Source: Neocallimastix lanati (nom. inval.)
Taxonomy: Eukaryota; Neocallimastigomycota; Neocallimastigomycetes; Neocallimastigales; Neocallimastigaceae
Assembly (NCBI GenBank): GCA_016946835.1
Contig: JACVTC010000074.1
Span: 618,501-682,500 of the forward strand
Length of the DNA stretch: 64,000 nucleotides
Direction: 5' to 3'
In this document: positions 4,035 through 48,526 of the stretch, one piece after another
Numbering within the stretch: the stretch's first letter is position 1
Layout of the letters: the number at the start of each line of letters is the position of its first letter
Position numbers and translations under genes: made by a program
Notes under the pieces: generated by a model
What the model was told of the DNA's origin: nothing
Database searches by the model: none
Seen by the model: only the letters and a program-made list of their open reading frames with translations

Positions 4035-5225
4035 ATGGATTCACTAAAAATATATAAGGTTCTACCACTATTAGAAGATTATGACAACAACGTGGTAGAT
4101 TGGATTGAGGATCTTGGAAACCTAATGAGGGTCTGTAATATCAAAGACCCACAAAGAATATTTACTTGGGCTTGTGAGGCGGTGGATGCTAATACTAAGG
4201 CTGCTTTAAGGAGATTAATAGATAAGAAAAACAATGTATATCCCTCCTTAAAAGATATACAAAAAGCCATAGAAAAACACAAAGGAGTTACGGAGGGTGA
4301 TAAACTTGAATAATGAGACCTTGTAAATATGTAAGTTGAAGAAACAATTAAAAATTTCAATGATGGATACAGAAGATTATATCATGACCTTCCAAGAGAT
4401 TATTAAAAGATATTATTTGTTAAAAATTACAGAAATTCCATTAAGTCAAGAAACTTCGCATATTCTCAAGTATTCATTTTTAAATGTGAAAGTCTGAATG
4501 AAGTATATGAAATAGCTGAAACCGCAGAAGAAGCTGAAAAGGAATGGGAAAGAGCAACCTCTTCCAATCAAGAGAACTATCAACAAACCTATGGTTCCAG
4601 AAAAAAAATTTCCAATAACATATCTATACTTACTCAAAATATTGGGAATGTTAGGAGAAATAGAACTGTAACATTTAATTATTTTAATAATAATTCAGAG
4701 TTTAGTATGCCGACCAATAATGGGAATTTTAGAAATAGAATTCAGAACTACTTTCAATACAATAATCCAAACTCTAGAGACTACACTAATAATTATAACA
4801 ATTTTAAAAGGAACAAATATTTTGGAAATATATCTAATAATAATAGCAATAATTTAAATAGAATATATAATAATGGTAATAACTATAATAACAAGGAATA
4901 TGGTAATTTTCCCGTGAGACCTACACATTACTATAATAATAATAATAATTTCTCCACTATTTCTAATTTTAATTGTTACAATGAACCACTAAGAAGAAAT
5001 TATCAACAGAATAACAACGACGAAGTTATGAACGGTAATCCTAATAATAATCAAAGTCAAATTAATAAAGAGAGTACTGAAAGTGCTAGTCGAACTAAAG
5101 TGAATATTTATTGTCATCGTTGCTATCAAACTGGTCACAAAAGTAATAATTGTCCATATACATTTAAACAACTAGCTGATATGGAAGAGAAAGGCTTACT
5201 TCCCAAAAGAAATTTAAACTTGTAA
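4035..5225 (+). pseudogene. gag: Element A gag, interrupted by stops
   Basis: The frame encodes a Ty3-type Gag. The N-terminal capsid-like part (DWIEDLGNLMRVCNIKDPQR) is similar to the gag at 41.8 kb. An Asn-rich linker follows, then a zinc knuckle C-x2-C-x4-H-x4-C (CHRCYQTGHKSNNC) and the tail PYTFKQLADMEEKGLLP. Four in-frame stops lie between 4311 and about 4407 (TAA and TGA adjacent at 4311-4316, another near 4330, and one in DY*K). The frame itself is kept throughout. The gag stop TAA at 5223-5225 lies inside a frameshift signal. Confidence 0.85.
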
Positions 5226-5246
5226 ATGGGAGAAGGATAACTCCCA
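5213..5246 (+). promoter_or_regulatory. Putative -1 ribosomal frameshift signal, gag/pol of element A
   Basis: Slippery heptamer T TTA AAC (5213-5219, gag codons TTA AAC) is followed by the 7-nt spacer TTGTAAA, which contains the gag stop. Then comes a stem TGGGAG (5227-5232), an 8-nt loop and CTCCCA (5241-5246). The pol frame is -1 to gag and open from 5180, so a shift here joins Gag to Pol. The same layout occurs in element B and at 42829-42862. Confidence 0.8.
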
Positions 5247-8200
5247 GTAAACAAACCAACTTAATAAATTATAATATTAATACTAGTATTTTGGAAACAA
5301 ATAATAAAAAAAATTATATGAATAAAGATCAAAGTTTTAATAAACATGTGGAATTTAACGATATATGTGAAGTTAAATGTAGAGGTAATACAAATAATGA
5401 AAACGATGAAACTTTTGAGAATACTAGAATTGAAAATAAAAATATAAATATTAATAATGAAGTTAATAAAGAATGTATAAAATTAAATAGTTATAATAAA
5501 ACAAAAATTAATGATAATGATGATTCTATTTATAATGAATCAGAGGAAGTAAACTTTAATAGAAATGCACGTAGTAATTATTTTGATATTACGAGAACTA
5601 ATACTAACACCATAAATAACAATGTACTTGCAGCTACAAGAAAAGATAAAACCATAAAAGTTAAAATGAAGTCCCCGTATAAGCCTAAGGAAAATGTTCA
5701 ACTCAACAAGAATGAATCAATAAAAAGAAAGGATAAATTAATAGATAATCCCACTGCTATCAACACTAACGCCATGAAACATAATTCCACAATAAACGAT
5801 AATGCACTTACCAATAATAATGTGGAAATGGATGACGTCGAAGGAGAATATAACCACAAGCGTGATACAAGGGTGAAGAATTCAATTGAAATAACAAATG
5901 ATTATAAGAAGCAAGATCATAGAGCTAATGAAAAACAAATAGATAAAAAAAAACAGAGAAGTTGGAACAATTAGACGTTTCTATAATTAATGGGAAAAAT
6001 ATTTCAAATGCCAAGAGAAAGGCCAAAGAGGAGAGAATTAAAGAAATTAAAGAAAGTGTAGTACAAAACAGGAATGAAGAATCTAAACGAAAAATTTATC
6101 AAGTGGAAAGACATATTAGGTTAATGAAAGAATTTGAAAATTTTAAATTGGACGATTTAATAGGTGAAATAGCTTCGATTGAGGTTACCATTAAGTTAGT
6201 ACATTTACTCGATTTATTTCCTAAATTTAGGACAGCTTTTTCTCAAAAATTACGATTAGAACCCCCACTTGCTACAAATACAATTACCAATGTAATTACG
6301 GCCATCAATAAAAATAAGATTGTTAAAGTGAACGGATGGGTAGAAGGAGTAAATACGGATATTTTGTTAGATTCCTGCGCCAGTGTTAATATGGTATCAA
6401 GAGAATTTTTAAGGAAATTAAAATCCACCTTAAAACCAATAGGTAGAATAATGGAAACCATATTTCAAGCCTTCTCGAATACAAATACATATACTGACAT
6501 TTATAAATTGAAGATAAAAATTGGCTCTTATACATTCGAAGAAAAATTCCGTGTAATTGAAAAGAGTGACCTATTCGACTTACTTGTTGGGATCGATTCA
6601 TTAAAAAGAAATAGATTCATATTGGACTTTTTAAAGATAAACTGTATCTTATTGATAATTCTGATAATAATGTGGAGATTGCTCATCTTAGGTATGATAT
6701 TAAACTACCAACGAATTCTGATTCCGAAAGTGAAGAGCAAGAGGTTGAGAATCAAGAGGACGTCGAAGAGATAAATAATAGCGTACCTATGCTGTTAACA
6801 GTTAGGAAGAACAATAACGAACTTGAAGAGATAATGGAAGACTCCAAATCAACTATAATAGACCAAGAGGAGGTAGAATCTAAACAGGATATTATTAAGA
6901 AAATTGTTGAGGAAGTACCGGATAAATTTAAAAGCCGAGTGGATCGAATCTTTGAGGAGTATAAAGAAGTCTTAGCCATAAAAACTGACGATTTAGGGAA
7001 TACGAAGCTATTACCTCATAGAATAAATCTTCTACCAGGGATTACACCATTTAAGCAGAAACCATATAGATTGTCCCGTGTACATTTCAAGGTGTTGAAG
7101 GAGGAAATCAATAAATTAATCAAAAATAAACTAATAGAACCCTCAGATTCTGCTTGGGCTTCTCCTGTGATCTTAGTGGAAAAGAAAAACGGGAAATATA
7201 GATTGTGCATAGATTATCGTAAGTTGAATAATTGTACGATTAAGGATTCTTACGCGCTTCCTCGAATCGATGAAATTCTTTATGCCATTGGGAATACAGC
7301 TAAAATACTTACTACCTTAGATCTCTTTTCGGGGTACCAACAGGTACCCATGTTTGAACAAGATAAGGATAAAACAGCATTCACTACAATTTTTGGTAAC
7401 TATGAGTTTAATGTAATGCCATTTGGACTAACTAATGCTCCCGCTACCTTTCAACGGGAGATGAATAGAATTTTTTTTGAACTTATAGGGAACTGTATTT
7501 TTATTTATATCGATGATGTTATTATTTTTTCTGGCTCTTTTGAAAAACATTTGGAGGATATAGTAAAAGTCTTTAAAATTCTCAGAGAAAACAATTTAAA
7601 AATCAACATAGAAAAATGTCACTTCTTCCAAAAAGAAGTGGAATTGCTGGGTCATTTACTTAAGGTGGATGGATTAAAGCCGGTCCTTACTAAAGTTGAA
7701 GTAATAAAACGATGGTTACCTCCGAAAAATATTACAGAAGTGAGATCGTTTCTGGGTGCCGTTGGCTATTACAGGATGTTCATTCCGAACTTCGCTGCAG
7801 AAGCTACTTCCTTATTTAAATTATTAAAGAAAAATTCTAACTTTCACTGGGGCCCTGAGGAGGATCTATCTTTTCAAACATTAAAGGATAGATTAATAAA
7901 TGCTCCAGTCCTCTCATTACCAGATTATGACAAAGAATTTATTATCCGAACTGATGCATCAAGAAAGGGGATTGGAGGAGTTTTAATACAAAAGGATGAG
8001 GATGGAAATGAACATCCTTTACATTTTGTTAGTAGAACTTTGAAGTCGGCTGAACTAAATTACAATGTTACAGATCTAGAAGGACTTGCTGCTTTTTATT
8101 GTGTAAAAAAATTCAAACACTATATATGTGGCGGTAAACTTGAGCCGATATTAATAACAGATCACAAGCCATTAGTGGGATTCTTTAAGAATACGGAACC

Positions 8201-8596
8201 AACCTCCTCTAGACACACTAAATGGATAATTTGCAGCCTTTCGAACTCGGATTGAATGTGGGAAGAATAAACAAAAATGAAGATGAAGAAGAATATTGGA
8301 TGAGAAAATTTATTAATCACCATAAGTGGATAGAAGAGGCAATTAAAAATATTGAAACTTCTAACAATTTATGGATGGATAGACGAAAACAAATGAAGAG
8401 ATTGAGAGCTGATTTCAAACCGGGAGATCTAATTCTGATAAGAGCCTTTAATAGAAGGAAATTGGACCCTTACTTTATAGGCCTACTAAAAATTGTTAAG
8501 AAAGAATTAAATACTGTTATTGTTTGTGATCCAATTTCGGGAGAAATAGCTGAAAGAAATGTGCACCTCAAAAACATTATAAATAAAATAAAATAA
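5226..8596 (+). pseudogene. pol: Element A pol: protease, RT, RNase H, integrase tail
   Basis: The -1 frame gives an Asn-rich N-terminal region to about 5950. A frameshift in an A run near 5945-5953 leads to the protease (LLDSCASVNM, Asp codon at 6370), with Cys where retropepsins have Gly. A second frameshift near 6630-6650 leads to RT (LCIDYRKLN, YIDDVIIF) and RNase H (RTDASRKGIGG). At about 8225 the frame jumps from the RNase H end (SRHTKW) straight to an integrase C-terminal part (QPFELG... DPYFIGLLKIVKK). The zinc-binding and DDE core, present in element B, is therefore missing. This is a dead internal-deletion copy. Confidence 0.88.
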
Positions 8597-11005: not shown

Positions 11006-14000
11006 ATGGATAAAAAGAATAAGAATAACAAAGTGCCCGAAAACACAAGAAAAACCACAAGGAGTGGTTCTTTGAAGAGTTCAGTGGGCAGCGTGACTGC
11101 AGATAGTAGCCCTACGCCTGTAGAAGCACCTCCATCTCGACGACAAAATACAGGAGACAAGAAAATGACTACTACTCCTGAGAAACCAGCTGCTACTAAA
11201 CCTAAGCCAGCTGTGGCGCCTGAGAAGAGTCAACCTGAGGCTAGTAAACCTGAAGCCAGTAGGCCAGGAACTAACCAAGGAGAAAGTTCAAGCAAAAATG
11301 TTAATGCTGGAGCGATGGACTTTGCTGCTTTGCTGAGTAAGCAGATGGAGGACTTTAAGAACATGATAATAAGCACTCAGCAACAGACGGCTGCAATGAT
11401 AGAACAGATGCAGAACCAAAGTGAAATGAGATTCGCTAAAATTGAAGCCGAACTAAGCAACTTTATCCCCGCTGTGGACCAACGATTTGGAGAGGTTGAG
11501 AGGCGAGTGGAAGACGAGGAGTCTGGTAGCCAAGCTAGTGTGCTAGAGCTTCAAAAGGTACAAGCGTATCTAAGTCAGCAACTTGCTGAAAGTAAAGATA
11601 AAGAGGCCGCTGTTAAAGCTGAAATCAAGAAGATTGAAACCTATCTGGATGCGGACCAGATAAAAGGAAAACAAATACAACAAGATCTAGAGGATAAAGG
11701 TCAGAAGTTGTTCAAGATTGAGGAATTCTTGGATGCGAACCAAGAAAGGGATAAGGCACAATTGAATGAGCTTGAAGAAAAAGTCGAGAAGCTAATGGCC
11801 ATTAACCAGGTACAGCAACAGGAGATCAAACGACTGGGTAAGCTGGCTCTGGATGCTCAGAATAAGGAGCAGGCATCGACAAGTAAACCTTTCCCACTAC
11901 ACATAGATACTAAAGAAGCAAGATACGATAGTTATCACCACTTCACGCCGCCTTTGATGACCAAAAGTGCGATGGAAGATGTGGTTATGACCGACGCGTA
12001 CCCTGTGGAGTACGAACGAGACATCCCAATGTTCAATGGTGAAAATGGAGATGTAGAATCATTTATTGACAGGTTAAAAAGGTACTTTGGTAGACACCAG
12101 AAGTATTACCAAAGCGAGCCCACGGCTATGTTGTACTTTATTGAGGACCACTTACAAGGAACTGCTAAGAAGTGGTACCAAATGGACGAAGTATTCAAAC
12201 AACGAGATGACCCACAACCTCAAAGGTTGATGGATAGATTGCTGAAGGAATTTAAAAGTGAAAGAACGTTGGAAGAAGTTAAAACAGCAATGCTGAAACT
12301 TAGGCACGACTGGGGTAAAGCCTATGAATACCTATCAGAATTCAATAGGTTAAGCAGAATACTTCAGCTAACGGATGAAACCAAAAGACTACTACTCGTA
12401 CAACAAGTTAGACCCTCGGTTCGTGAAGCCTTTTATGATCTGCCTGCAGAAAAGCAAACCTTAGAAGATTACGTGACTTGTCTAAGGAGATGCGACACAT
12501 TCCCCGCGGATTACAAATACGATTACCTAGAAAGGTACGAATACAACCGCGAGAGGAAGATAGCCATCATGGCCCTACTTGGAATGATGGACCCGCGAAG
12601 ACCCTCCAAAGATATTGAAGCCAAAAGAAGGAGGAACAGCGATAATCGCCGAGGCGATAAAAGAGATTTCAGTAGGAAAGAGCCTACAAAGCAAAACAAT
12701 TACGATAGAAACAAGAAAGATGGATATAACCACAATAGTGGTAAAGATTTCAGTACGAGACCAAGCGAAAAGCAAAATTACTATAAAGACTCACGTACCA
12801 GCAGTAACAATCCAATCCCCAAGACAGCACTACTAATGCAAGCTGGGTCTGAGTACGAAGTATTTGTGCCTGAGGCTAAGATAAGTAATCTTCGTACCAA
12901 AGAGGGGCTCCAAGATTTAAATGTGCTGTATGATACTGGATCACAGATCAACATGATCCATCCGCAGTTAGCCAAGGAGATGGGACTCAAGACAGAAGAC
13001 CGTCCCTTAACGTTTACTACTGCCGCTGGTAAAGTGCTGATACCACGGGTTACGGAAGAGTTCAAGATTAAGATTAAGCTGGTCGAAGAGCGTACTGGTA
13101 AAGTCAAATGGTATGACTTTAATACAAGATGCAGGCTAGCCGAGGCTATGCCGAGAACGATTATTCTGGGATCAAGATTCATGGATAGACATTTAATCTA
13201 TAGAAAGATTGACGTCCATGATCAACAGCCTAAGGTATATAAAATAGATGGTGAAAGACCAGGGCTACCAGATGTAGACTCACCAGGAGAGTGCGCCGGT
13301 GAAAGTATCTACATGGTGCAACTCCCAGAAGAAAGAGAAGAAGCTGTGCAAAAGGAGATTCAACCTACAGTGAGAATTACCAAAATTATAAATCAGGTTA
13401 TTGATAACCAGAAGTTGAAGGACACGGTGTATGAATTAACGAGGCAATATTACCGTGATAGAGGAATTGAGTATACGATGGATTACTACGATTATTTAGT
13501 GGATTACGATAAATGGGCAGATTGGTTCAAGGTACAGAAGACTAAAAATCTAAAGGAGAGTGAAATCAATAAAAACCCTACGGAAGGTAGTGCACAAAAA
13601 GATAGCCAGACAAAAGATCATCTAGCCATGATCACGCAAGAGGATTCGGTAGCGGAAACAATCAGAAAAGTGGGACTTGAGAAGCTATTGTCAATAGGCG
13701 AAATTATAGATAAGTATTACGGTGACTTAACGGAAGCATTCAATGAAGAAATCGCTGAGACATTACCTGAGCACAGGCCGTATGATTGCAAAATAGAGCT
13801 AGAGCCTGATGCACCACTTTATAAAGGAGCTATCTACCCAACGAGTCCTAAAGAAGAGAAAGCACTCAAAGAATATATTGATGAAAATTTAGCTAAGGGG
13901 TTTATAAGAAGGTCAGAATCTCCGGCGGGTTACCCTGTATTGTTCGTGCCGAAGAAATCAGGTGAGCTACGACTATGCATGGATTATCGCAAACTGAACC

Positions 14001-16684
14001 AATGGACTAAACGCAACGCCTATCCGATCCCAAGAATTAGTGCAGTGTTCGAAGCTATGAAAGGAGCAGTTGTGTTCTCCAAGTTCGACCTAAAATCTGC
14101 ATATAACTTGGTACGAATTCGAGAAGGTGATGAGTATAAGACAGCCTTCAACACCAAGTTTGGACACTTTGAGCATTTGGTAATGCCTTTTGGGTTAACC
14201 AATGCACCAGCAGTGTTCCAAAGCTTCGTGAATGATGTCTTCAGCGAGGATATCGGGAAGTACTGTCAAGTCTACTTAGATGACATCGTCGTATATTCCA
14301 AAACTTTGGAGGAACATGTAGAGCATGTTCGAACGATTTTAAAGAAGCTGATACAACATAAACTTGTAGCTAAGATGTCCAAATGTGAGCTACATAAGTT
14401 AAAAATCTCATTTTTAGGCCATGTGGTCAGCAAGGATGGTATAGAGACTGACCCAGAAAAGATTAAGGCCGTGGCCGAATGGCCACAACCAGAAAATATC
14501 AAGCAGATGCAAAGCTTCTTAGGCTTCTGCAATTATTACAGGAATTTTATTAAGAATTTCTCTGAAATAACCAAACCGTTATTTAAAATGACCTCAAAGA
14601 AAGAAAAATTTGAATGGAGCGAGGAAGGATTAGCCGCGTTTCACAAATTAAAGGAAATGCTTACCTCTCCGCCAGTACTAGCTTATCCTGACCACGAGAA
14701 ACAGTTCTTCGTTGAATGCGATGCTAGTAATTACGCGATAGGAGGTGTGCTGTCACAGAAAGGAGACGATGGTACCCTTCATCCTATATATTATTATTCT
14801 AAGACACTTAGTAAGGCTGAAGTAAATTATTCGATTACGGAGAAAGAACTATTAGCCATTAAGACTGCTTTTACAGAATGGCGACACTTGCTTCAAGGTG
14901 CGAAGCATAAAATTATTGTTTATAGTGACCACAGAAATCTGTTGTTCGCTACCAAACCACAATTACTAACTCCTAGGCAAATTCGATGGCAAGAACTATT
15001 CGCCACATACTGGTTTGAAATAGTTTACAGACCTGGGAAGAAAAATGGTAAAGCTGACGCCCTCTCAAGAGTTGAAACAGAGAAAACTGAGGGTAAAGAA
15101 TTTGATAAAGATAGTCTATTAAAACCCGATCAATTGGTAGGATTTGATGACGTAGATGGAGAAGCCAGTTATCTAGCCTTAGCTACCAATTTCGTAGATG
15201 ATATCAAGCAGGCCTACCGACAGGACAAAATGGCCCAAGAGATTATGAAAGATCTAGCAGAAGATGCCAGAAATAATTATAACAAGAAGCATTGGCTAGA
15301 AGTAGATGGCCTTCTGGTTAGAAAGGAAAACCCTGAACAAATTTACGTGCCCACAACGTTCAGGAAAACAATTATTCAATTAAACCATGACTCGGAGTAC
15401 GCAGGACACTTAGGAATTGATAAGACTTCGGACCTAGTATCTAGGAATTTCTACTGGCCGAAGATGAGGAAGGATATATCAGGCTACGTAAAAGCTTGTA
15501 GAACCTGCACTACTAAGAAGGATGACCGCCATAAAGAATATGGTACTGCGGTAAGAGTTCCGGTCGCAGAATTACCCTGGCAAGAGGTACAATTGGATTT
15601 TATAACTGATCTGCCAGTGAAGAGTAGAGTAAGGACCAATAGTGGTTATGTTTGGGAAATGAAAAGAGCAGGTTGTATCTTAGTATGCTGTGATAAATTA
15701 ACCAAGATGATACACCTGATAGGATTCAAACATGTGCCAAACGCTAACGAGACTGCTGACGCATTCCTAAAGGAGATTTACAGGCTGCATGGATTCCCTA
15801 AAGTAGTTACAACTGATAGAGGAGTTCAGTTCACCAGTCAGGTATGGAAGGAGCTACTAGAATTCTTCGGGACCGAAGTAAACCATGCTACCACTAGTCA
15901 CCACGAGACAGTAGGCCAAGTGGAAAGGAACAATGCCTACGTGGAAACTTATTTACGGTGCTTTGTGGGAACTTACGATGATGAAAGTTGGATGGACTAC
16001 CTGTTCTTAGCAGAGTTCTGCTATAACAAGGCAATCCATGCTTCTACCCAACAATCTCCTTTCCTCACCTTATATAACTACCAGGTACATAACTCCCCTA
16101 AGACAGCCGATTTAGTACATTCGTTAGGTGAAGCTAAAATGATCGATAGCTTTGCTCACAACTTGGGAAACCTAAAGCACATCCTAGAAATCGCCCAAAC
16201 AAGATACCTGGATAATATGGATAGGACCCGTACAGATAATTACCCTAGGTACAAGTTGTTGGATAAAGTATGGCTAAAGAAACCTGAAAATTATGACGCA
16301 TTGCCATTCTACAAACTTGCAACAAGAAAATTCGGACCATTCAAGGTAGTGGGTGTCGACGAAGAAAAGAAGAATTACCGATTAGATATAAGTCGTTCAC
16401 CTTTCCCAAATATGTACCCAGTGTTCCATGTGAGTGAATTGGAACCATTCTACAAATTACCCAAAACATTAGTGCCGGCTCCTGCAGGAAACCAAAAGAT
16501 AATTCATATCCTTGGATCAAGGAAACACCAAGGACTTTATCAATACCTGGTTGCGTACCAGAATGATAAACAAGAGTGGGTCAACGCCGACGTGATCGAC
16601 GACAATCCTCACTACGCAGAATTGCTGGAGGATTACCAAGATTTTAGCTATAGCCAGTTCATTGCTAGCGTCGTCAACCATTAG
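11006..16684 (+). CDS. gag-pol: Gag-Pol polyprotein of the chromovirus
   Basis: Single 1892-aa ORF. Residues about 1-100 are low-complexity Lys/Pro/Ser/Thr, 100-285 are probable coiled coil, and 330-520 are a capsid-like domain. A basic Asn/Arg/Lys stretch at about 530-605 stands in place of a zinc knuckle. Protease motif YDTGS has its Asp at 643. RT has CMDYRKLN and YLDD (1090-1093). RNase H has CDASNYAIGG (Asp 1239). Integrase has an HHCC finger (about 1455-1500) and catalytic D1531, D1604, E1640 (DD35E). The tail ILGSRKHQGLYQYLVAYQ...WV resembles a chromodomain. All key residues are present, and its higher GC and codon use stand out from the surroundings. Tf1-type elements make Gag and Pol from one ORF and rely on proteolysis and differential stability, so no recoding signal is expected. 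Confidence 0.96.
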   Translation: MDKKNKNNKVPENTRKTTRSGSLKSSVGSVTADSSPTPVEAPPSRRQNTGDKKMTTTPEKPAATKPKPAVAPEKSQPEASKPEASRPGTNQGESSSKNVNAGAMDFAALLSKQMEDFKNMIISTQQQTAAMIEQMQNQSEMRFAKIEAELSNFIPAVDQRFGEVERRVEDEESGSQASVLELQKVQAYLSQQLAESKDKEAAVKAEIKKIETYLDADQIKGKQIQQDLEDKGQKLFKIEEFLDANQERDKAQLNELEEKVEKLMAINQVQQQEIKRLGKLALDAQNKEQASTSKPFPLHIDTKEARYDSYHHFTPPLMTKSAMEDVVMTDAYPVEYERDIPMFNGENGDVESFIDRLKRYFGRHQKYYQSEPTAMLYFIEDHLQGTAKKWYQMDEVFKQRDDPQPQRLMDRLLKEFKSERTLEEVKTAMLKLRHDWGKAYEYLSEFNRLSRILQLTDETKRLLLVQQVRPSVREAFYDLPAEKQTLEDYVTCLRRCDTFPADYKYDYLERYEYNRERKIAIMALLGMMDPRRPSKDIEAKRRRNSDNRRGDKRDFSRKEPTKQNNYDRNKKDGYNHNSGKDFSTRPSEKQNYYKDSRTSSNNPIPKTALLMQAGSEYEVFVPEAKISNLRTKEGLQDLNVLYDTGSQINMIHPQLAKEMGLKTEDRPLTFTTAAGKVLIPRVTEEFKIKIKLVEERTGKVKWYDFNTRCRLAEAMPRTIILGSRFMDRHLIYRKIDVHDQQPKVYKIDGERPGLPDVDSPGECAGESIYMVQLPEEREEAVQKEIQPTVRITKIINQVIDNQKLKDTVYELTRQYYRDRGIEYTMDYYDYLVDYDKWADWFKVQKTKNLKESEINKNPTEGSAQKDSQTKDHLAMITQEDSVAETIRKVGLEKLLSIGEIIDKYYGDLTEAFNEEIAETLPEHRPYDCKIELEPDAPLYKGAIYPTSPKEEKALKEYIDENLAKGFIRRSESPAGYPVLFVPKKSGELRLCMDYRKLNQWTKRNAYPIPRISAVFEAMKGAVVFSKFDLKSAYNLVRIREGDEYKTAFNTKFGHFEHLVMPFGLTNAPAVFQSFVNDVFSEDIGKYCQVYLDDIVVYSKTLEEHVEHVRTILKKLIQHKLVAKMSKCELHKLKISFLGHVVSKDGIETDPEKIKAVAEWPQPENIKQMQSFLGFCNYYRNFIKNFSEITKPLFKMTSKKEKFEWSEEGLAAFHKLKEMLTSPPVLAYPDHEKQFFVECDASNYAIGGVLSQKGDDGTLHPIYYYSKTLSKAEVNYSITEKELLAIKTAFTEWRHLLQGAKHKIIVYSDHRNLLFATKPQLLTPRQIRWQELFATYWFEIVYRPGKKNGKADALSRVETEKTEGKEFDKDSLLKPDQLVGFDDVDGEASYLALATNFVDDIKQAYRQDKMAQEIMKDLAEDARNNYNKKHWLEVDGLLVRKENPEQIYVPTTFRKTIIQLNHDSEYAGHLGIDKTSDLVSRNFYWPKMRKDISGYVKACRTCTTKKDDRHKEYGTAVRVPVAELPWQEVQLDFITDLPVKSRVRTNSGYVWEMKRAGCILVCCDKLTKMIHLIGFKHVPNANETADAFLKEIYRLHGFPKVVTTDRGVQFTSQVWKELLEFFGTEVNHATTSHHETVGQVERNNAYVETYLRCFVGTYDDESWMDYLFLAEFCYNKAIHASTQQSPFLTLYNYQVHNSPKTADLVHSLGEAKMIDSFAHNLGNLKHILEIAQTRYLDNMDRTRTDNYPRYKLLDKVWLKKPENYDALPFYKLATRKFGPFKVVGVDEEKKNYRLDISRSPFPNMYPVFHVSELEPFYKLPKTLVPAPAGNQKIIHILGSRKHQGLYQYLVAYQNDKQEWVNADVIDDNPHYAELLEDYQDFSYSQFIASVVNH

Positions 16685-16708: not shown

Positions 16709-17267
16709 TGTAACAGATACATGGTAACTTCAAGCCTATCCAATGATAGTTCTTTGGTTACGTAACGTATCTCTAAACAGCTAGCAATTTCGGCTAATCA
16801 AATAAAATCTTTTATTACTTACGTACATTAAATTTTATTATTTTATAAATAATTATATAGTTAAATATTTATTTAAATATATTTTATTTAGTGATTAGTA
16901 AACTAAGTTAAATTAAATTATTTACCAATCATAATATTATTGACATGTATAAATAATAATTGAACTTGTAACTGTAACGCACTAGCGTTACTATTAACGT
17001 AAATTGTTATTATAAATATTAATATTATTTAAATAAAAATATAATTATTGAATAAAAAATATTACTCAGTGTAAGCCCAGTAACTAATAACAAATCAAGT
17101 TATAAAGTGCTGCGCTATATTCTCGTGTAATAAGAAATAATAATTATAGAATTAATTAAATTTAGTGTTTATTATTAACAACTCGAATAGAGAGGTGTTA
17201 AGTTATCTTAGCCTTTAAATTTAGTTATTATTCGTTATTTTAGTTAATAATAAACTTACCTTTTACA
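16709..17267 (+). repeat. 3' LTR of the chromovirus
   Basis: 559 bp, same length and, on reading through, the same sequence as 9657-10215. It is followed by the target duplication ATAAG (17268-17272). Confidence 0.95.
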
Positions 17268-17272
17268 ATAAG

Positions 17273-17309
17273 AAATAAAAGGATTACAATAAATACACTT
17301 TATTTTGAT

Positions 17310-17353
<44 letters not shown>

Positions 17354-17629
17354 ATTTGTTTATGTGTTTATTTGTTTATATTTTTTTTTAGCTAATAAGA
17401 AAATTAATTATTACTATTATTTATTAAACAATAAAATTTTTTTTTTTTTTATTTTTATATAACTAAATAAAACTATTTATTAAATTATGCACTAAACTAA
17501 ATAAATTACTTAATAATATTAACTAAACTATTATAACTAAAAATTTAATTAAATAACTAACTATCAAAACTAAACTATTTAAAACTAAACAAACTAAACT
17601 ATTTTAAAACTAAACTATTTAAAACTAAA

Positions 17630-17698
<69 letters not shown>

Positions 17699-18431
17699 TT
17701 TAAGACTAAACTATTTAAAACTAACTAAAAATATTCTTATTATTAATTTTATTTTTATTATTTTAGTTTTGTTAGTAATCTTATTATAATCTAAGGAAAG
17801 ATTCTGCTTTTTTTTTTTTTTTGAGTAGACATAGGTCTATTTATACTTTTTCAATTTTATTTTTAATTGTAAAGCCTCAATAAAAAAAAAGAGTTTGAAT
17901 TAAAATTAGGATTTTTGAAATTGATTTTAATAATTATTCAATATATTTTATATTTATTAAGAGTATAATTGAATAAATATGATAAAATCTTTTCGAAAAC
18001 GTTAGAAAGTCATTACTAATAATTTTAAATTTTATTAGTAAAAAAAAATTTTTTTTTTTTTTTTTTTTTTTTTAATTGGTAATAATAATTACAATATATA
18101 ATATATTTATTACTAATTTATTCTAAAAAAAATTTTTTTTTTTTTTTTTTTTTATATATATATATTTTAATAATCAACCAATATTTTTATTTTAATTATT
18201 TAGAATTTTCTAAAAATTTATAGAATTTATTTAAGGGATTCTTAATATAGAAATCTTTTAGAAACTTTTAGAAAAATAATAATATTTACTATCAATATTT
18301 TAGAATTTCCATGAAAGAAGAATATAGGAAAGTTTAGTTTAATAAGAAATCAATAATAATTATAATTGGAATATTTGTAATATATTATGAAAATTATTAC
18401 AATTTAATAATTATTGTTTTGTTCTTTTTCA
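17273..18431 (-). repeat. Main part of element B 3' LTR
   Basis: With 9641-9656 it forms a 1175-bp LTR matching 24223-25326 (1104 bp). The length difference is mainly one segment (about 18055-18150, from AATTGGTAATAATAATTACA to a second T run) missing from the other copy, plus poly(T) length changes. The deletion lies between two poly(T) tracts. Confidence 0.9.
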
Positions 18432-18472
18432 AGATGCCCTCGCATAAATTCAGGCTAAATGGAGGCTGAATT
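18432..18472 (-). promoter_or_regulatory. Stem-loop and purine tract of element B
   Basis: On the minus strand AATTCAG (18472-18466) pairs with CTGAATT (18453-18447) around a 12-nt loop that includes the pol stop. A few bases later comes GCGAGGGCATCT, then the LTR start TGAAAAAGAAC. It parallels the hairpin-plus-tract arrangement in the other elements. Confidence 0.65.
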
Positions 18473-21400
18473 ATACTTTACTATATTCTTCAAATGGACA
18501 TTTCTATTTAATTGGATTCCGGTATTTGGATCAGCTAAAGTTAAGGTATTATATTGTTTCTTAATGACTTTTAAAGGACCTACGAAATATGGTTCAAGCT
18601 TTGTGCGGTTAAAATTTCGAACTAGTACTAAATCGCCAACAGCTATTCTTTTTCCTTGATTTAGGCTATTCTTTTCTTCTCTCCTAGTTGCCCAGTATTT
18701 ACTTGCGTTTTTACTATTCTCGGCAGCTTCTAAAACCCATCTGTAATGTGAAACAAATTTTTCTAGCAATACTTCATCCGAAGATTTATATAGGTCTTTT
18801 GTTGGTCTAGCAGCAATGTCGAATGGTTGCTGATCTTCTCTTCCGTATACTAGTTCAAAGCTAGAGTGGTTGGTAACTGAATTTTTAGTTGTTCTGAGGG
18901 CCCATAACGCAGAAGGTAATATCTCATCCCAGTCTTTATTCTTTTCTCCTAGCAATCGAAGTAATTTACCTATCTCTTTATTCCTATTTTCGGTTAAACC
19001 GTTTGATTCCGGATGATAGGTAGAAACGAATTTTATGTAGACATCATATAAATCTAGAAAAACTTTAGTCATGTCAGAGGTAAATTGCACCCCATTATCA
19101 GTAGTGATGATTTGCGGAACACCATGTCGGGCGAACACATTTATGAGAAATTTAATCACATCTTGGGAAGTAATAGTTTCAGTAGCTTCCGCTTCAACCC
19201 ACTTCGTAAAGTAGTCAACAACTACTAAGATATACTGTTTATTATTCTTAGTTTTCACAAGCGGACCTATAATGTCTAATCCTAAATGTACAAAAGGTCC
19301 TTCTACTTTAGTTGGAGTATCTTCTGTAGGATCAGGGTAGGGTTGCGGTCTATTGAGTTGGCATTTTTCACACTTACCAATTATTCTTTTGACATCGATT
19401 ATCATATTGTTCCAGTAATAGCTTTTCTTTAGCCTTTGGTAAGTTTTGTAATAGCCTTCATGACCAATGTCATGAGCTGCCAAGATCAGTTTAACTTTTT
19501 CGGCTGTATCAGTGACCAATTTCCTATAATTATTTCCATCTACAAAATAGTCTTCACCGTCAATAGTGGTAAATTTTTCCGATATAAAGTCTTTAATTAC
19601 TTTAGATAATAATGTTTCATCTTTTTCTTGTGTAACTTTCATGGCTAGCAATTTCTTATCCTTTTCACTCTTCATTCGAGACAATGCATCGGCTAAGACA
19701 TTCTTTTTTCCAGGTTCGTAACGAATATCAACACCTAAGGAACTTGCTGTTAAACACCATCTCGTTTGTCGAGCATTTTTCGGTTCCTTGTTCTTAAAAA
19801 GTCCAAGTAAAGGTCTATGATCAGTATAAATTATGGTAGTGTGCGGATTTCCCATAATGTATGATTTTAACTTTTCTAAAGCGAAGTATAAAGCTAAACC
19901 TTCCAAGTCTGTTATTCCATAATTTTTCTCTGACTTCGATAAGGTACGACTTATATAATGAGCAGGATGTTCTTTACCAGTGATTTCATCCTTTTGAAGT
20001 AATACTCCTCCGAGTCCATCATAGGAGGCATCTGTTCTGATAATAAAGGGTTTACTAAAATCGGGAAATTTAAGGATAGGTGCATTTATTAAACATTCTT
20101 TCAGCTTTTCGAAACATATTTGTTGTTCGTCATTCCAGACATACTTTGTATTCTTACGTAAAAGTTTACATAAGGGAGCCGTTATTTTAGAATAATTAAA
20201 AATGAATTTTTGGTAGTAACCGACTGTCCCTAAGAATGACCTTAGTTCGTGAATATTAGTGGGAGGATTCCACTTTTTAATAGCTTCTATTTTACTTTCC
20301 ATTGGACTTAATCCTTTTGTAGATAGTTTATGACCAAGTACTTCTACTTCTGTCCTAAAGAATTGGCATTTTTCTATATTGATTTTCAATTTGTGTTTAC
20401 GAAAGATTTCAAGGACTTGTTGGATATGGATAAGATGTTCTTCAACACTTTTAGAATATATCAGTATGTCATCGATAAAATTGTATACACATACACCTAT
20501 TAAAGGAAAAAGAATTTGATTCATCTCACGTTGAAAGGTAGCTGGAGCGTTCGTGAGACCAAAAGGCATGACTTTGAATTGATAATTTCCGAATTTAGTA
20601 GTAAAGGTAGTGATCTCTACACTTTCATCATTCATTAATATCTGATGGTAACCAGAGTAAAGATCCATGGTAGTAAAAATTTTTGCGCCTTGTAGACTAT
20701 CAAATATTTCATCGATATAAGGTAATGCATAAGAGTCTTTTTCAGTGGCTTCGTTAACTTTTCTGTAATCTACGCATAATCTCCATTTTCCATTTGGTTT
20801 TGGAACCAATACTACTGGAGAACTCCAAGTTGAATGAGAGGGTTCAATTAATCTCCTCTCAATTAGGTCAATCAGTAATTCTTTCAGAATATCAGATTTA
20901 AATTTTGTTAGCTTATAACTCTTCTGCTTAACCGGTTTAGTTCCTTCTTTTAATTCAATTTTATGGGGAGTCAAATCTGATGGTGTTAATTCTTCTGAGG
21001 AAGTCGCAACAATTTCTATGTTATCCTCCAATAATTTAAGAATTTTGTCTTGAAAGTCTTTATTCAGAGTATTTTTAAAAATATCATTATGTATATAATC
21101 TAAGGGAGGTAATCCTTCAATGGTTTTTAACTTTGCTTTAATATTGACTTCTTCTTTATCGTCAATTTTTGTTACTGAACATAAAAGTTTTGGTTCGTCT
21201 TCAAAATCATTATTTAACTGTGCAATCTTTTCAATGAATCCTTCAGTTGAGAATCTACAAAGACTGTTTAATACAGGATGTATGAATAATCTATGAACAA
21301 CTTGTGTTTTAAGATTTATTAAAACATCATAGAATGGATCTTCTTTTTCTACAATTCGACAATTTACAGTCATAGTAAAATTGTTAATTCGAATAGGTAC

Positions 21401-22489
21401 TCTAATTATGACACTCTCTGAGTACTCATCATTGTTAGTAGCAAGACGGATGCGACCACAGCTTATACCAATTGGTTCAAAGTTTCTTGGAATTTTGTCT
21501 AAATATTTTCGAGTTATTATATTTAGATTACTACAAGAGTCGATTAAGAGTTTACCTTTAATGCCTTCAACTGTGCAGTCAACCATGGCAATATCATCCT
21601 CTTGGATTTCCTTTCTATTACTTTTGTAAGAGTGGTCTACGTTATTGACCATGACTGTCATAGCAGTAATATTTTCTACTGCTCCCGCTATTTTATCTTT
21701 CTTAACTAACTTTAGCCCCTGAGAAACTTGAGATCTAATTTGGGGTGAAGAATTTATTAATTGTCCGAATGTGATGTTACATCTTATATTATTTAAATCT
21801 TTTAAGACATCATATTCTTCTTGATCCTCTAACATTTGAATTTTCCGTTTAACTTTAGGGGTGGAGATTTTCTTTTCCGTATTTCCTTCTTCCATTAACT
21901 TTTCAATTGTTTCTATTTCTTTGAGGTTTTCTAAGTCCTCTAGGTCGTCACCTATATTTATTATTGGGGTTGTTTCTTCTTTATTTGTAGATTTTGCATT
22001 AGATTTGATTTTTGGTTCAATGCTTATACTTCCTCTCTCTTTATCACGAGCTTCTTTAGCCTTAGCCTTTTCTTTATTATTTCTTGGTTGGGCTATAAAG
22101 GAAGTATGTAGTTGCTTTTCAGCTGGCTTTGGGGGATTTATTTCCAATTCTCTTTCTCTCTTCTTCCGAAGTGCGGGGGTTGCTATTGGTCTAGGATTAT
22201 TTTTCAAACTTTTGTATTCACGATTTTCATAGTTTTCTATAGTATCATCTACTTTTTCTATTTTTCTTTTTGCAGCCGCCACAGTAAAATTGGTTGCATT
22301 TAGATTTTCTTCCTCATCTGGGTCATAATTTATTTCATAAAGACTATTAATATTACAACTTCTATTATTGTTTTCTGAGTTCGTTTCTTCCTCACTACCA
22401 ATTTTATTTACTGTCAGAACATCTGGGAAGGAAATCTCTTTATTAGGGTGAAATTGAATTGAAGCTAATTTTTTGTTCCGGGAGTGCTT
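18455..22489 (-). CDS. pol: Pol polyprotein of element B
   Basis: The open frame starts just inside the gag-end hairpin (after an in-frame TAG at 22492-22490) and has no ATG for about 200 bp, so it is probably made only by recoding from gag. An acidic/basic linker of about 250 residues precedes the protease (LLIDSCSNLN, a DSC motif in place of DSG or DTG). RT has LCVDYRKVN and FIDD. RNase H has RTDASYDGLGG. Integrase has an HHCC finger (HDIGHEGYYK...CEKCQ) and an exact D-x35-E (TTDNGVQF...TEN). The tail EPYFVGPLKVIKK is a GPY/F-like module without a chromodomain. No internal stops. It is in the +1 frame relative to gag, one base off from the -1 frame predicted by the recoding signal. Confidence 0.93.
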   Translation of the reverse strand, partial: KHSRNKKLASIQFHPNKEISFPDVLTVNKIGSEEETNSENNNRSCNINSLYEINYDPDEEENLNATNFTVAAAKRKIEKVDDTIENYENREYKSLKNNPRPIATPALRKKRERELEINPPKPAEKQLHTSFIAQPRNNKEKAKAKEARDKERGSISIEPKIKSNAKSTNKEETTPIINIGDDLEDLENLKEIETIEKLMEEGNTEKKISTPKVKRKIQMLEDQEEYDVLKDLNNIRCNITFGQLINSSPQIRSQVSQGLKLVKKDKIAGAVENITAMTVMVNNVDHSYKSNRKEIQEDDIAMVDCTVEGIKGKLLIDSCSNLNIITRKYLDKIPRNFEPIGISCGRIRLATNNDEYSESVIIRVPIRINNFTMTVNCRIVEKEDPFYDVLINLKTQVVHRLFIHPVLNSLCRFSTEGFIEKIAQLNNDFEDEPKLLCSVTKIDDKEEVNIKAKLKTIEGLPPLDYIHNDIFKNTLNKDFQDKILKLLEDNIEIVATSSEELTPSDLTPHKIELKEGTKPVKQKSYKLTKFKSDILKELLIDLIERRLIEPSHSTWSSPVVLVPKPNGKWRLCVDYRKVNEATEKDSYALPYIDEIFDSLQGAKIFTTMDLYSGYHQILMNDESVEITTFTTKFGNYQFKVMPFGLTNAPATFQREMNQILFPLIGVCVYNFIDDILIYSKSVEEHLIHIQQVLEIFRKHKLKINIEKCQFFRTEVEVLGHKLSTKGLSPMESKIEAIKKWNPPTNIHELRSFLGTVGYYQKFIFNYSKITAPLCKLLRKNTKYVWNDEQQICFEKLKECLINAPILKFPDFSKPFIIRTDASYDGLGGVLLQKDEITGKEHPAHYISRTLSKSEKNYGITDLEGLALYFALEKLKSYIMGNPHTTIIYTDHRPLLGLFKNKEPKNARQTRWCLTASSLGVDIRYEPGKKNVLADALSRMKSEKDKKLLAMKVTQEKDETLLSKVIKDFISEKFTTIDGEDYFVDGNNYRKLVTDTAEKVKLILAAHDIGHEGYYKTYQRLKKSYYWNNMIIDVKRIIGKCEKCQLNRPQPYPDPTEDTPTKVEGPFVHLGLDIIGPLVKTKNNKQYILVVVDYFTKWVEAEATETITSQDVIKFLINVFARHGVPQIITTDNGVQFTSDMTKVFLDLYDVYIKFVSTYHPESNGLTENRNKEIGKLLRLLGEKNKDWDEILPSALWALRTTKNSVTNHSSFELVYGREDQQPFDIAARPTKDLYKSSDEVLLEKFVSHYRWVLEAAENSKNASKYWATRREEKNSLNQGKRIAVGDLVLVRNFNRTKLEPYFVGPLKVIKKQYNTLTLADPNTGIQLNRNVHLKNIVKYNSASI

Positions 22490-22512
22490 CTACTCCCGAC
22501 TATTGATTTAAA
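22479..22512 (-). promoter_or_regulatory. Putative -1 frameshift signal, gag/pol of element B
   Basis: Heptamer T TTA AAT (22512-22506), 7-nt spacer CAATAGT with the gag stop TAG (22502-22500), then stem CGGGAGT (22498-22492), 6-nt loop and ACTCCCG (22485-22479). The -1 frame runs through the hairpin but hits TAG just after an A6 run (22474-22469). One more A in that run would put it in frame with pol. Confidence 0.75.
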
Positions 22513-23414
22513 GGCATATTGTGGTTTTGATTGAAGTACTTTCTTTTGTTTTCTTGAATAATGGACTGAAGTTTAGGACAATGATTACTGTAATGACCTT
22601 TTTCTTCACAATAGAAACAAGTTTTAATAGTTAAATGTTTCATTTTACTAGTAAGATCTTCCCTTTCAACATCTACATTAGTTCTCTTTAGTTCTTCGGA
22701 CTCTAATTTCTTATTATAAGGTATAGAGGGAGAATTTCGTTTGAAGGTATTATTACTATTATAATTGTTTCGATGGTAATTCTCTTGATTTGTAAGTCGG
22801 GTTTGGTTAATCATTAATCTATCTACCTTTTCAGCGGCTTCATAAGCTTGTTTTAAAGAAATATCATCTTGTAAGGAGACTCTTTTCCATGCTTCTTCAT
22901 TGTTTCTTAAAGAATCCACGTAATCTAGAACACTTACTTGCTTCTTATGCTTCTTGTCTAGTTTCAAGTATAAAGATCTAAAACGTGTGTTAAAATCTTT
23001 CACTTTTTCATTACGTTTTATTCTTAGGGAACGTATTTCTCTTACTAATAAATTCTGATCTTCCTTAATGCCATAAAACGTCTCTAATGCATCAATAATC
23101 TCTGAGAATGTAGGATAAGAAGTATCATTTTCGCCGTTACTTTCATTGTCACTTTCATCATTATCTTCATCTTCATCATCACTATCATAGTTATCCAAAT
23201 TATTCTTCAATTCTTGAATTACCTTCCTCGGTTCACCCGTAGATGTTAAAACGCATGCAATAAATATTTTCTTTGGATTAGTAACTTCTTCAAGCTCAAT
23301 CCATAATTGTATTTCTGAGGCCCAAGTCTTAATATCTAAGTTATCCTTGGTTAATTTTTCAATATCTTTGAGTTCCTTTTTCAAAGATTTGAAATCTATT
23401 TCCTGGTTAGTCAT
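22500..23414 (-). CDS. gag: Gag of element B
   Basis: 304 aa from ATG at 23414 (MTNQEIDF). I prefer this to upstream in-frame non-ATG starts, because the preceding 40 codons look like AT-rich leader. A capsid-like N-terminal half is followed by an acidic Asp/Glu stretch (residues about 85-105) and a zinc knuckle CFYCEEKGHYSNHC (C-x2-C-x4-H-x4-C) near the end. It binds genomic RNA and forms the particle by family knowledge. The TAG stop sits between the slippery heptamer and the hairpin. The frame is intact and homologous to the two decayed gags at 4.0 and 41.8 kb. Confidence 0.92.
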   Translation of the reverse strand: MTNQEIDFKSLKKELKDIEKLTKDNLDIKTWASEIQLWIELEEVTNPKKIFIACVLTSTGEPRKVIQELKNNLDNYDSDDEDEDNDESDNESNGENDTSYPTFSEIIDALETFYGIKEDQNLLVREIRSLRIKRNEKVKDFNTRFRSLYLKLDKKHKKQVSVLDYVDSLRNNEEAWKRVSLQDDISLKQAYEAAEKVDRLMINQTRLTNQENYHRNNYNSNNTFKRNSPSIPYNKKLESEELKRTNVDVEREDLTSKMKHLTIKTCFYCEEKGHYSNHCPKLQSIIQENKRKYFNQNHNMPLNQ

Positions 23415-23525
23415 CTTTGATAATAAAAAATGTATTAATAAATATTCCAACTTAATAAAAAAATTTTCTTTTTCTTTATATAGAGTAATTATTATTGATT
23501 TTATAATATAATATAAATTAATTTT

Positions 23526-23592
23526 TAGACTCAAAAATCCTTTTGACAGTCTATTCCTCCTATAGTAGACTCGAAATTCTTTCGACAGTCTA
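23526..23592 (-). ncRNA. Two tandem hairpins in the leader of element B
   Basis: Two similar 27-28-nt hairpins, about 40 bp apart from start to start, precede gag. Each has outer arms TAGAC/GTCTA and inner arms TCGAAA/TTTCGA in one and TCAAAA/TTTTGA in the other, so the inner pairs co-vary. They could serve in RNA packaging, dimerisation or translation; the role is inferred. Confidence 0.6.
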
Positions 23593-23671
23593 TAATTAAA
23601 ATTAAGAAATATAAAAGATATATAATCCAGTTATTCCCAACTGCTAATTATATATCTAAGAATCAAAAATA

Positions 23672-24222: not shown

Positions 24223-24275
24223 TGTTCGGTTATATAAGAAATAAAAGGATTACAATAAATACACTTTATTTTGAT

Positions 24276-24316
<41 letters not shown>

Positions 24317-24591
24317 ATTTGTTTATGTGTTTATTTGTTTATATTTTTTTTTAGCTAATAAGAAAATTAATTATTACTATTATTTATTAAACAATAAAAT
24401 TTTTTTTTTTTTTTTTTTTTATATAACTAAATAAAACTATTTATTAAATTATGCACTAAACTAAATAAATTACTTAATAATATTAACTAAACTATTATAA
24501 CTAAAAATTTAATTAAATAACTAACTATCAAAACTAAACTATTTAAAACTAAACAAACTAAACTATTTTAAAACTAAACTATTTAAAACTA

Positions 24592-24624
<33 letters not shown>

Positions 24625-25015
24625 GTTTTTTTTTTTTTTTTTTTTTTTTTTGTTTTTTTTTTTTTTAAGACTAAACTATTTAAAACTAACTAAAAATATT
24701 CTTATTATTAATTTTATTTTTATTATTTTAGTTTTGTTAGTAATCTTATTATAATCTAAGGAAAGATTCTGCATTTTTTTTATTGAGTAGACATAGGTCT
24801 ATTTATACTTTTTCAATTTTATTTTTAATTGTAAAGCCTCAATAAAAAAAAGAGTTTGAATTAAAATTATGATTTTTGAAATTGATTTTAATAATTATTC
24901 AATATATTTTATATTTATTAAGAGTATAATTGAATAAATATGATAAAATCTTTTCGAAAACGTTAGAAAGTCATTACTAATAATTTTAAATTTTATTAGT
25001 AAAAAAAAAATTTTT

Positions 25016-25051
<36 letters not shown>

Positions 25052-25326
25052 TATATATATATTAATAATCAACCAATATTTTTATTTTAATTATTTAGAA
25101 TTTTCTAAAAATTTATAGAATTTATTTAAGGGATTCTTAATATAGAAATCTTTTAGAAACTTTTAGAAAAATAATAATATTTACTATCAATATTTTAGAA
25201 TTTCCATGAAAGAAGAATATAGGAAAGTTTAGTTTAATAAGAAATCAATAATAATTATAATTGGAATATTTGTAATATATTATGAAAATTATTACAATTT
25301 AATAATTATTGTTTTGTTCTTTTTCA
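24223..25326 (-). repeat. 5' LTR of element B
   Basis: 1104 bp, TG...CA on either strand, rich in T runs and CTAAACTATTTAAAA motifs. It is uninterrupted, and so shows the pre-insertion sequence of the target used by the nested chromovirus. It lacks the roughly 70-bp segment noted in the other copy. Confidence 0.93.
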
Positions 25327-41789: not shown

Positions 41790-42838
41790 CAAAAATAAAA
41801 GAAAGAACTTCCATGTTTGGAAGAGTACAATAAGAATGTATTTGAGTGGGTTGAAGACTTAAAGGACTTATTCACACTTTATGACATTACAGAGCCGAAG
41901 AAGGTATTTGATTGGATTTTGGCTTCTGTAGAAGACGACGTGAGAGACGTCATAAAGTCTGTAGTGTCCAAGAAAAATAATGAAGTAAGATATCCAAAAT
42001 TTATCGAAATCAAGAAGGCGGTCGAAGAATATTTAGAAGTTACTGAAGGAGATAAGTGGGCAATGCTAAGGAATATGAAAATTACGGAAGGTGAGATAAT
42101 AAAGAAATTTAACCACAATTATAGAAGATCATATTATAATCTTAGTAGGGATTACCAAAAACTTATTACAGTTAAGGAATACCAATTGGCATTAGTTCAA
42201 GAGTTTTTCCATGTTCCCAGGTTGCTTTATCAAGAGTCAATGACTTGCAAGAAGCTTATAAGATTGCAGAGTTAGTTGAAAAAACTGAGAAGGATATAAA
42301 GGAGAAAAACGAAAATATAATACCAAGAGGTAGAAGAGGTCCCAAAAATATTTCAATAATTACACAAACCAGTAATTTTTTGGCACAACATCCATTCTAC
42401 CGTGGGTTTGTCAAGGAAGAGAGTGACCATTATAATTATCCTATATACAACGGATATAATAGAGTAGAAAATTTCTATGAGAGAAGAAATTCTAATAAGA
42501 ATCCTAATAGATATAATGATAGAATTCATTATAATAAATATAATGAAGGTAAAGGGATTCGAAATGACTACAAAAACCATAATAATAATAATAAAAGTAA
42601 TCATATTAACTATCATGGATCGCTCAATATTTATTTAGAATCGGAGGAACAACAAAGTAACAAATTTGAAAGGAAGGTAACTTGGGGATCAAATAAAAAT
42701 GAAGATAATACAAGAACTAGAAGATCCTACCCATCAAATTGCTGTCATCGATGTGGACAAGAAGGTCACAAAGCTCAGGATTGTCCATATACCTTTAAAG
42801 AGTTAGCCGAAATGGAAGAAAAGGATCTTTTAAATTAG
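41790..42838 (+). pseudogene. gag: Third Ty3 gag relic
   Basis: LPCLEEYNKNVFEWVEDLKD aligns with the start of element A gag (LPLLEDYDNNVVDWIEDLGN), and the match continues through EVTEGDKW. A frameshift near 42195-42220 separates the first part from NDLQEAYKIAELVEKTEKDI, an Asn-rich linker, a zinc knuckle CHRCGQEGHKAQDC and the tail PYTFKELAEMEEKDLLN. It is closer to A than to B. No LTR of element A or B type adjoins it. Confidence 0.85.
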
Positions 42839-42862
42839 TAAATGGAAGAAGGAAAACTTCTA
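42829..42862 (+). promoter_or_regulatory. Putative -1 frameshift signal of the third gag
   Basis: Heptamer T TTA AAT (42829-42835), 7-nt spacer TAGTAAA with the gag stop, stem TGGAAG (42843-42848), 8-nt loop AAGGAAAA, CTTCTA (42857-42862). Compared with element A, GGGAG/CTCCC has become GGAAG/CTTCT, so pairing is kept. Confidence 0.75.
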
Positions 42863-48525: not shown

Positions 48526-48526
48526 C

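Follow-up and report, generated by a model that had tools for sequence, protein, structure and literature searches.

Pseudoknots of the MMTV type have a compact H-type geometry. Retroviral gag-pro and gag-pol signals of that type, which excerpts of PMC5009743 mention, are like the junctions reported here in their tandem-slip heptamer and close gag stop, in a spacer within the usual 5-9 nt (a range found in many studies) and in a short first helix (S1) with a second (S2); the junctions reported here differ in host and lineage, in their UUUAAAY heptamer, in a loop helix that varies with the family and in having some families without a clear S2. The coronavirus IBV signal has the same heptamer, U_UUA_AAC (PMC5009743, in excerpt), and a downstream pseudoknot, but it serves a polymerase junction whereas ours is a gag-pol junction, and common descent is not implied.

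Among retrotransposons, excerpts of PMC5009743 place pol in the -1 frame in 28 of 51 animal elements, with a smaller skew in fungi, and a -1 Pol relative to Gag has been reported for several fungal Ty3/gypsy elements, namely grasshopper and the Tf1/sushi group (PMC10085805) and VdLTRE2-4 of Verticillium (PMC3441728), in accounts whose excerpts mention neither a pseudoknot nor a fixed spacing. The 27-nt gag-pol motif of sireviruses likewise contains a conserved, covarying stem at a retrotransposon gag-pol junction, but these are plant elements with pol in +1; Ma3 (PNMA) is likewise derived from Ty3/gypsy and combines a -1 shift and a classical heptamer with an H-type pseudoknot, but is a mammalian gene without a Pol domain (both from excerpts of PMC5009743). 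Tca2 of Candida, in the excerpted text of PMC7175516, likewise has a predicted pseudoknot past the gag stop at a yeast retrotransposon gag-pol junction, but its stop is in frame, and a reporter study cited there found no readthrough, which cautions against reliance on prediction alone.

A search of titles and abstract openings, covering few subscription papers, found no frameshift signals described for retrotransposons of anaerobic fungi. Given the known fungal and animal -1 elements, -1 recoding in such an element is expected in kind; what is added here is a predicted pseudoknot with a changing loop helix, and a strict spacing across hundreds of copies.

Results

Three junctions in one window

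The stretch of DNA analysed (the window, 64,000 nucleotides) holds Ty3-type elements A and B, on opposite strands, and a relic. A first-pass annotation had described UUUAAAY in the gag frame, 7 nt containing the gag stop and then a stem at all three sites, and the sequences do read so. The features are as follows.

4407..5225, + strand: element A gag frame, stop to stop, 272 codons (ORF scan)
5180..5974, + strand: element A -1 frame, entered past the heptamer, closed after 253 codons (ORF scan)
5213..5219, + strand: element A slippery heptamer TTTAAAC, read U UUA AAC (sequence reading)
5220..5226, + strand: element A 7-nt spacer, with the gag stop TAA at 5223-5225 inside (sequence reading)
5227..5246, + strand: element A S1, 5227-5232 with 5241-5246, and 8-nt loop 5233-5240 (fold)
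5256..5257, + strand: CC of a conserved CAAACC, which could pair with loop GG 5235-5236 (2 bp, inferred)
17258..18431, - strand: element B LTR, approximate limits (repeat families)
18455..22489, - strand: element B Pol ORF, 1344 codons, with RT, RNase H and IN (ORF scan, Pfam)
22461..22465, - strand: element B pseudoknot helix S2, 3' strand GCTTC (predicted pairing)
22479..22498, - strand: element B S1, 22498-22493 with 22484-22479, seventh pair 22492/22485 (fold)
22486..22490, - strand: element B pseudoknot helix S2, 5' strand GAAGC, within the hairpin loop (predicted pairing)
22499..22505, - strand: element B 7-nt spacer, with the gag stop TAG at 22502-22500 inside (sequence reading)
22506..22512, - strand: element B slippery heptamer TTTAAAT (sequence reading)
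22500..23630, - strand: element B gag ORF, 376 codons (ORF scan)
24224..25326, - strand: element B other LTR, approximate (repeat families)
42829..42835, + strand: relic slippery heptamer TTTAAAT, 0-frame stop TAG at 42836-42838 (sequence reading)
42843..42862, + strand: relic stem as first annotated, 42843-42848 with 42857-42862 (not the minimum-energy register)

Counting the first base of the heptamer as 0, the 0-frame stop is TAA at +10 in element A, and TAG at +10 in element B and at +7 in the relic. The 7 nt to S1 lie within the 5-9 nt expected of a stimulatory structure, and the hairpin folds in element A (-9.1 kcal/mol alone; 60-nt fold against shuffles, z -2.40) and in element B (-12.1 kcal/mol; z -3.21), whereas the relic folds weakly: its best structure uses another register (-4.8 kcal/mol), and over 60 nt it does not outdo shuffles (z -0.41). 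The statement that UUUAAAC is the strongest -1 heptamer was too strong, for PMC5009743, in excerpt, ranks it with three others among the most shift-prone.

Element A is split among several frames, with protease and RT-RNase H pieces in others (5947-6774 and 6615-8255; ORF scan and Pfam), and is the only element in which Pfam recognises a protease domain. Its flanking direct repeats are 89% identical (repeat search), and in some of its sister copies the gag frame exceeds 400 codons. The -1 frame of the relic closes after 45 codons. The gag ORF of element B gives weak Pfam matches to gag and to the zinc knuckle, both under the curated cut-offs, and its LTRs share ungapped blocks of 87-100% identity, some at 97% and 100%. 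Its -1 frame closes after 15 codons, the 1344-codon Pol ORF lying in a different frame from the -1 frame of the heptamer. Fourteen next-best genome matches exceed the matched stretch of this copy: 13 have a single extra base, and one, truncated at the end of its contig, has two; L048, the only one of the 14 read at length, has a -1 frame open for 1349 codons. A second slippery run, by which two -1 shifts would lead into the Pol ORF of element B, was considered and is unnecessary given this open sister copy.

We note several other features of the window. A further Ty3-type element (11006-16684) has a single 1892-codon Gag-Pol frame, stop to stop, with no junction; a single-ORF strategy coexists in this window. 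A copia-type element (48257-54286) has 269-nt LTR blocks that are 100% identical, and its gag (49449-50678) and pol (50679-53951) share a frame that is interrupted by a single UAA (50676-50678), which may mark readthrough or a null allele. There are also an inverted duplication (58792-60433 and 61870-63540, 99% complementary) with copia RT pieces on each arm, repeats spaced 54 nt at two places (55805-56185 and 57959-58194), and direct repeat blocks (1188-2045 and 56772-57639) that are 91-98% identical and about 55.6 kb apart.

The cassette across the genome

The genome comprises 199 Mb in 762 contigs. The pattern TTTAAAY-N7-BGGRAG occurs in it 1072 times, against 80 for the reversed pattern, and the heptamer with the full stem at a free spacing of 1-22 nt occurs 899 times, against 1 for the reversed control; all 100 of the free-spacing matches listed span 33 nt, and GGGAG lies 8 nt past the heptamer in all 23 distinct texts among them. 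When just 'not G' is required at the first base of the heptamer, the hairpin is found 955 times (1 reversed), and hence roughly 94% of such hairpins have the heptamer.

Copies were gathered by DNA-similarity searches with three queries, taking the best 40 scored places for each and keeping 112 after some, among them the window's own sites, had been set aside. Of these, 40 were read as long stretches (39 from the element A query and 1 from the B query) and 20 more as 221-nt stretches; 40 pattern matches, from 100 listed of the 1072, were read as 171-nt stretches. With the three window sites this gave 103 sites, 63 not chosen by pattern and 40 pattern-chosen, in which the heptamer, the spacing and most of the 5' arm are forced while the 3' arm and the downstream pairing are free. 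TTTAAAY stands at the expected place in 98 of the 103, including 58 of the 63 not pattern-chosen, as an X_XXY_YYZ heptamer in the upstream frame. A frame filter blind to pairing (0 frame open for at least 18 codons upstream, -1 frame for at least 15 downstream) kept 83 sites, representing 53 distinct 45-mers (24 not pattern-chosen and 29 pattern-chosen). Five sites were dropped as having no TTTAAAY and 15 by the filter; about seven of those dropped resemble chance pattern matches, and the others relics. A pattern scan of IMG/VR matched 5 contigs, with the 0-frame stop inside the spacer in none of the 5.

Reading frames and proteins

The 0-frame stop is at +10 in 27 of the 53 distinct sites, at +7 in 22 and farther away in 4, so that it lies at +7 or +10 in 49, and the +1 frame is shut at once because TTTAAA contains TAA. 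Before it meets a stop, the -1 frame runs for 1404 codons in L018, 1342 in L024, 1368 in L041, 1365 in both L045 and L047, and 1349 in L048; in L023 and L028 it stays open as far as the sequence was read, and none of these eight contains withheld letters. L046 likewise reads on, with withheld letters from codon 1229. In the remaining long-read copies it closes sooner, and many have early stops in one or both frames. A long overlapping -1 ORF, of 1342 codons or more, is found in eight fetched copies, though not in window copy B and for just 253 codons in window copy A; in L023, L024, L028 and L041 the frames of Gag and of -1 Pol are both long. The annotated conservation of the -1 frame past the site therefore holds in sister copies, where it is open for 1342-1404 codons, and fails in element B of the window.

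The elements have LTRs, a Gag with a CCHC knuckle and Pol in the order RT-RNase H-IN (repeats, Pfam), as Ty3/gypsy elements do. The Pol proteins of L018, L041, L045 and L048 are 40-61% identical pairwise over about 1300 residues, and a scan of 8 Pol ORFs for the protease motif D[ST]G[AST] gave no match in any of them. In protein searches Pol and Gag find their closest named relatives among records of Neocallimastix, Piromyces, Anaeromyces and Orpsp1, the last of which we take to be Orpinomyces; from these relatives the host is probably an anaerobic gut fungus (Neocallimastigomycota).

The gag-frame product of U UUA AAY is Leu-Asn. Of 99 Gag homologues from two Gag searches, most of them unnamed records possibly from the same or a near species, 75 end in LN (25) or LNx (50); the ending is present in 73 of the 82 that have a CCHC knuckle, and among the dipeptides of these proteins LN accounts for 0.8%. 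Of the 17 homologues assigned by name to anaerobic fungi, just 3 end in this way, P0084 (Orpsp1) and, from Anaeromyces robustus, P0097 and P0169; among the remaining 14, several end before or at the knuckle or extend far beyond it, as gene models may do. The proteins thus appear to support a Leu-Asn end of Gag widely, and its spread across genera thinly. We also note that one Gag homologue, P0076, is filed in an Erysipelotrichaceae MAG, and is probably fungal sequence in a bacterial bin.

Directly past the junction the -1 frame encodes a conserved peptide, G-[RS]-x-x-[ST]-[PS], at 5227-5260 and at equivalent sites elsewhere. A protease site may be one conceivable protein role for it, and a scan of the first 32 of 71 Pol homologues gave one match to the peptide, at an unrelated place.

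The first helix

S1 is smaller here than in the coronavirus signal. Across 50 distinct rows 93.7% of S1 cells are paired, 21 cells being altered on both sides, and none of 500 shuffles is as high, although related sequences may beat shuffles without any structure; slid partners pair in 45-65% of cells. In the same rows the number of pairs changed on both sides is unremarkable (479 of 500 shuffles as high), as is that of further pair types (76 of 500), and in 22 rows the corresponding figures are 82 and 438 of 500. A tree-based covariation null of our own design gave no significant pair in S1 (E values of 2.6 and 6.9 for its two variable pairs), and the two best column pairs were both inside the loop. 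The stem covariation anticipated in a larger alignment is therefore seen against shuffles and falls short of significance in the tree-based test; the idea that the stems keep pairing as their sequence changes is upheld by compensatory changes and let down by the relic, whose annotated stem is not its best fold.

The outer pair of S1 is U-A in 27 of the 50 rows, G-C in 5, C-G in 4, U-G in 3, A-U in 1 and unpaired in 10; the fourth pair is G-C in 28, A-U in 11, G-U in 10 and otherwise in 1. Pair 18/31 is A-C in none of the 50 rows, G-C, G-U and A-U all being common. In the 29 pattern-chosen sites, with the 3' arm free, 159 of 174 S1 cells pair, and all six pairs form in 17 of the 29. Codon use points the same way: among the 24 distinct sites not pattern-chosen, the Gly codon in the stem is GGG in 16 and GGA in 6 and the Ser/Pro codon is TCC in 12 and CCC in 11, whereas in 14 long -1 ORFs taken as reference GGG makes up 14% of Gly, TCC 11% of Ser and CCC 13% of Pro codons. 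This retention of minority codons argues for selection on the stem at the RNA level, and since S1 and S2 also encode Pol, part of the conservation is at the protein level.

A predicted second helix that changes between families

In the 22 distinct sites outside what we term the GRR group, with the exception of L104, the hairpin loop is able to pair with downstream bases. The loop and downstream strands are GAAGC/GCTTC, GCAAT/ATTGC, TCAAT/ATTGA, GAACGTT/AACGTTC, TGTACT/AGTACA, AGTG/CACT and AGCG/CGCT, and the geometry is that of an H-type pseudoknot, with an S1 of 6-7 bp, an S2 of 4-7 bp and a linker of 8-14 nt from the stem. For 11 distinct loops the longest pairing runs sum to 59, whereas permutations average 37.6 and none of 20000 comes as high. 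An exact permutation of seven classes, which like the search region were set after the pairing had been seen, scores 36 against a mean of 22, a score reached by the true arrangement alone among 5040; other representative sets give 1 of 5040 and 1 of 720. Shuffles of single sequences give p < 0.05 for S2 in 17 of the 22 sites (not in L073, L086, L088, L094 and L104). In a seven-row alignment (A2), both sides have changed in five of the seven S2 pairs, and every one of these changes comes from the single row L082.

Counts across the genome bear on the same pairing. The GAAGC loop occurs with GCTTC 710 times (701 hairpins of GAAGC type) and the GCAAT loop with ATTGC 153 times (147 hairpins of GCAAT type); of the exchanged combinations, GCAAT with GCTTC occurs 0 times and GAAGC with ATTGC 183 times. 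The 31 ATTGC rows common to both match lists of the GAAGC loop sit at GCTTC places, three bases earlier, which gives ATTGCTTC. In the element B group the loop thus pairs downstream across families, which supports S2 as a putative H-type pseudoknot helix that varies in sequence and place between families and yet pairs. The stem-loop first annotated as the downstream structure is present, but as a description it was incomplete, the second helix of this group having been missed.

A group with the hairpin alone

Element A and the relic fall into the GRR group together with 29 more distinct sites, with loops of the AAGG type. No S2 was found in it (permutation p 0.21; 1 of 31 sites below 0.05). The loop GG is kept in 30 of the 31 sites and a downstream ACC codon in 29, AGG and ACC both being minority codons, and a two-pair GG/CC contact is possible. 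We also looked at distal pairing for the loops of this group. Six copies, belonging to three families, have complements of 6-7 nt near +500 to +545; four copies of element A's own family have none, and we take these complements as chance.

Discussion

The junctions described here are very probably programmed -1 ribosomal frameshift cassettes at the gag-pol boundary of Ty3-type LTR retrotransposons. The phase of the heptamer, the spacing, the stop and the -1 Pol frame of sister copies can be read off the DNA directly, as can the complementarity of S1 and S2, and the -1 frameshifting first proposed for the window appears to fit best with the phase and spacing, the position of the stop, the sister -1 Pol, the codons and the compensatory changes in both helices.

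As we envisage it, a ribosome would decode U UUA AAY, the Leu-Asn at the C-terminus of Gag, as the structure 7 nt downstream reaches the mRNA entry channel. Usually reading would continue to the stop 0-1 codon later and Gag would be released; occasionally the P- and A-site tRNAs would slip jointly to UUU AAA, and the -1 frame would then be translated through Pol (RT, RNase H and integrase) to give Gag-Pol. We infer from these features that slippage occurs, as well as its rate, the tRNA steps and the folding of the RNA in the cell. The downstream structure would be of two kinds, an H-type pseudoknot in element B and others, and S1 only, perhaps with a 2-bp GG/CC contact, in element A and the relic.

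It is conceivable that the stem is a by-product of the conserved N-terminal Pol peptide, with RNA structure not itself selected, given that the -1 peptide is conserved within families and that S1 alone is not significant in the tree-based test. Retention of minority codons, the lack of any A-C at pair 18/31 and an S2 that pairs though its sequence and place differ between families all speak against this, and we consider it very improbable. We give as little credence to the notion that Pol is made in another way, by stop readthrough, a +1 shift, reinitiation or splicing. Such a route would accommodate the Pol ORF of window copy B, which lies outside the -1 frame, and the copia-type element of the same window, where a single UAA separates gag and pol in a shared frame, may be cited in its favour; nevertheless, a +1 shift would run straight into the TAA that TTTAAA contains, a -1 frame of Pol length is present in eight of the fetched copies, and none of these routes gives a role to the heptamer phase or the fixed spacing. 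On the reading frames, we reject readthrough and a +1 shift as the main route.

The signal might also be mostly a fossil, once active at -1 but now carried by dead, unexpressed copies, a reading that would leave the identity of the device unaffected. Window copy A and the relic are broken, and in many of the copies fetched an early stop interrupts one frame or both. Against this, the LTR blocks of element B are 87-100% identical, including some at 97% and 100%, and four copies (L023, L024, L028 and L041) retain long Gag and long -1 Pol frames, so that we regard a mostly fossil signal as unlikely. The programmed -1 cassette can also be given a broader reading, in which a retrotransposon lineage found throughout anaerobic gut fungi kept one cassette, with its heptamer, 7-nt spacer and Leu-Asn end of Gag fixed, and repeatedly swapped its loop helix, the hairpin-only group being a minimal pseudoknot that, like luteovirus signals, is held by an A-rich linker and two GC pairs. 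The scarcity of the Leu-Asn end among named homologues (3 of 17) weakens this lineage-wide reading, and we put it forward as a doubtful, speculative extension.

Lastly, a single genome here supplies hundreds of -1 signals as a natural library, in which the heptamer and spacing are fixed and the downstream structure varies, and which would make the pseudoknot determinants of frameshift rate directly testable. If borne out, the cassette would add a retrovirus-like, pseudoknot-type -1 signal to the retrotransposons of an early-diverging fungal lineage.
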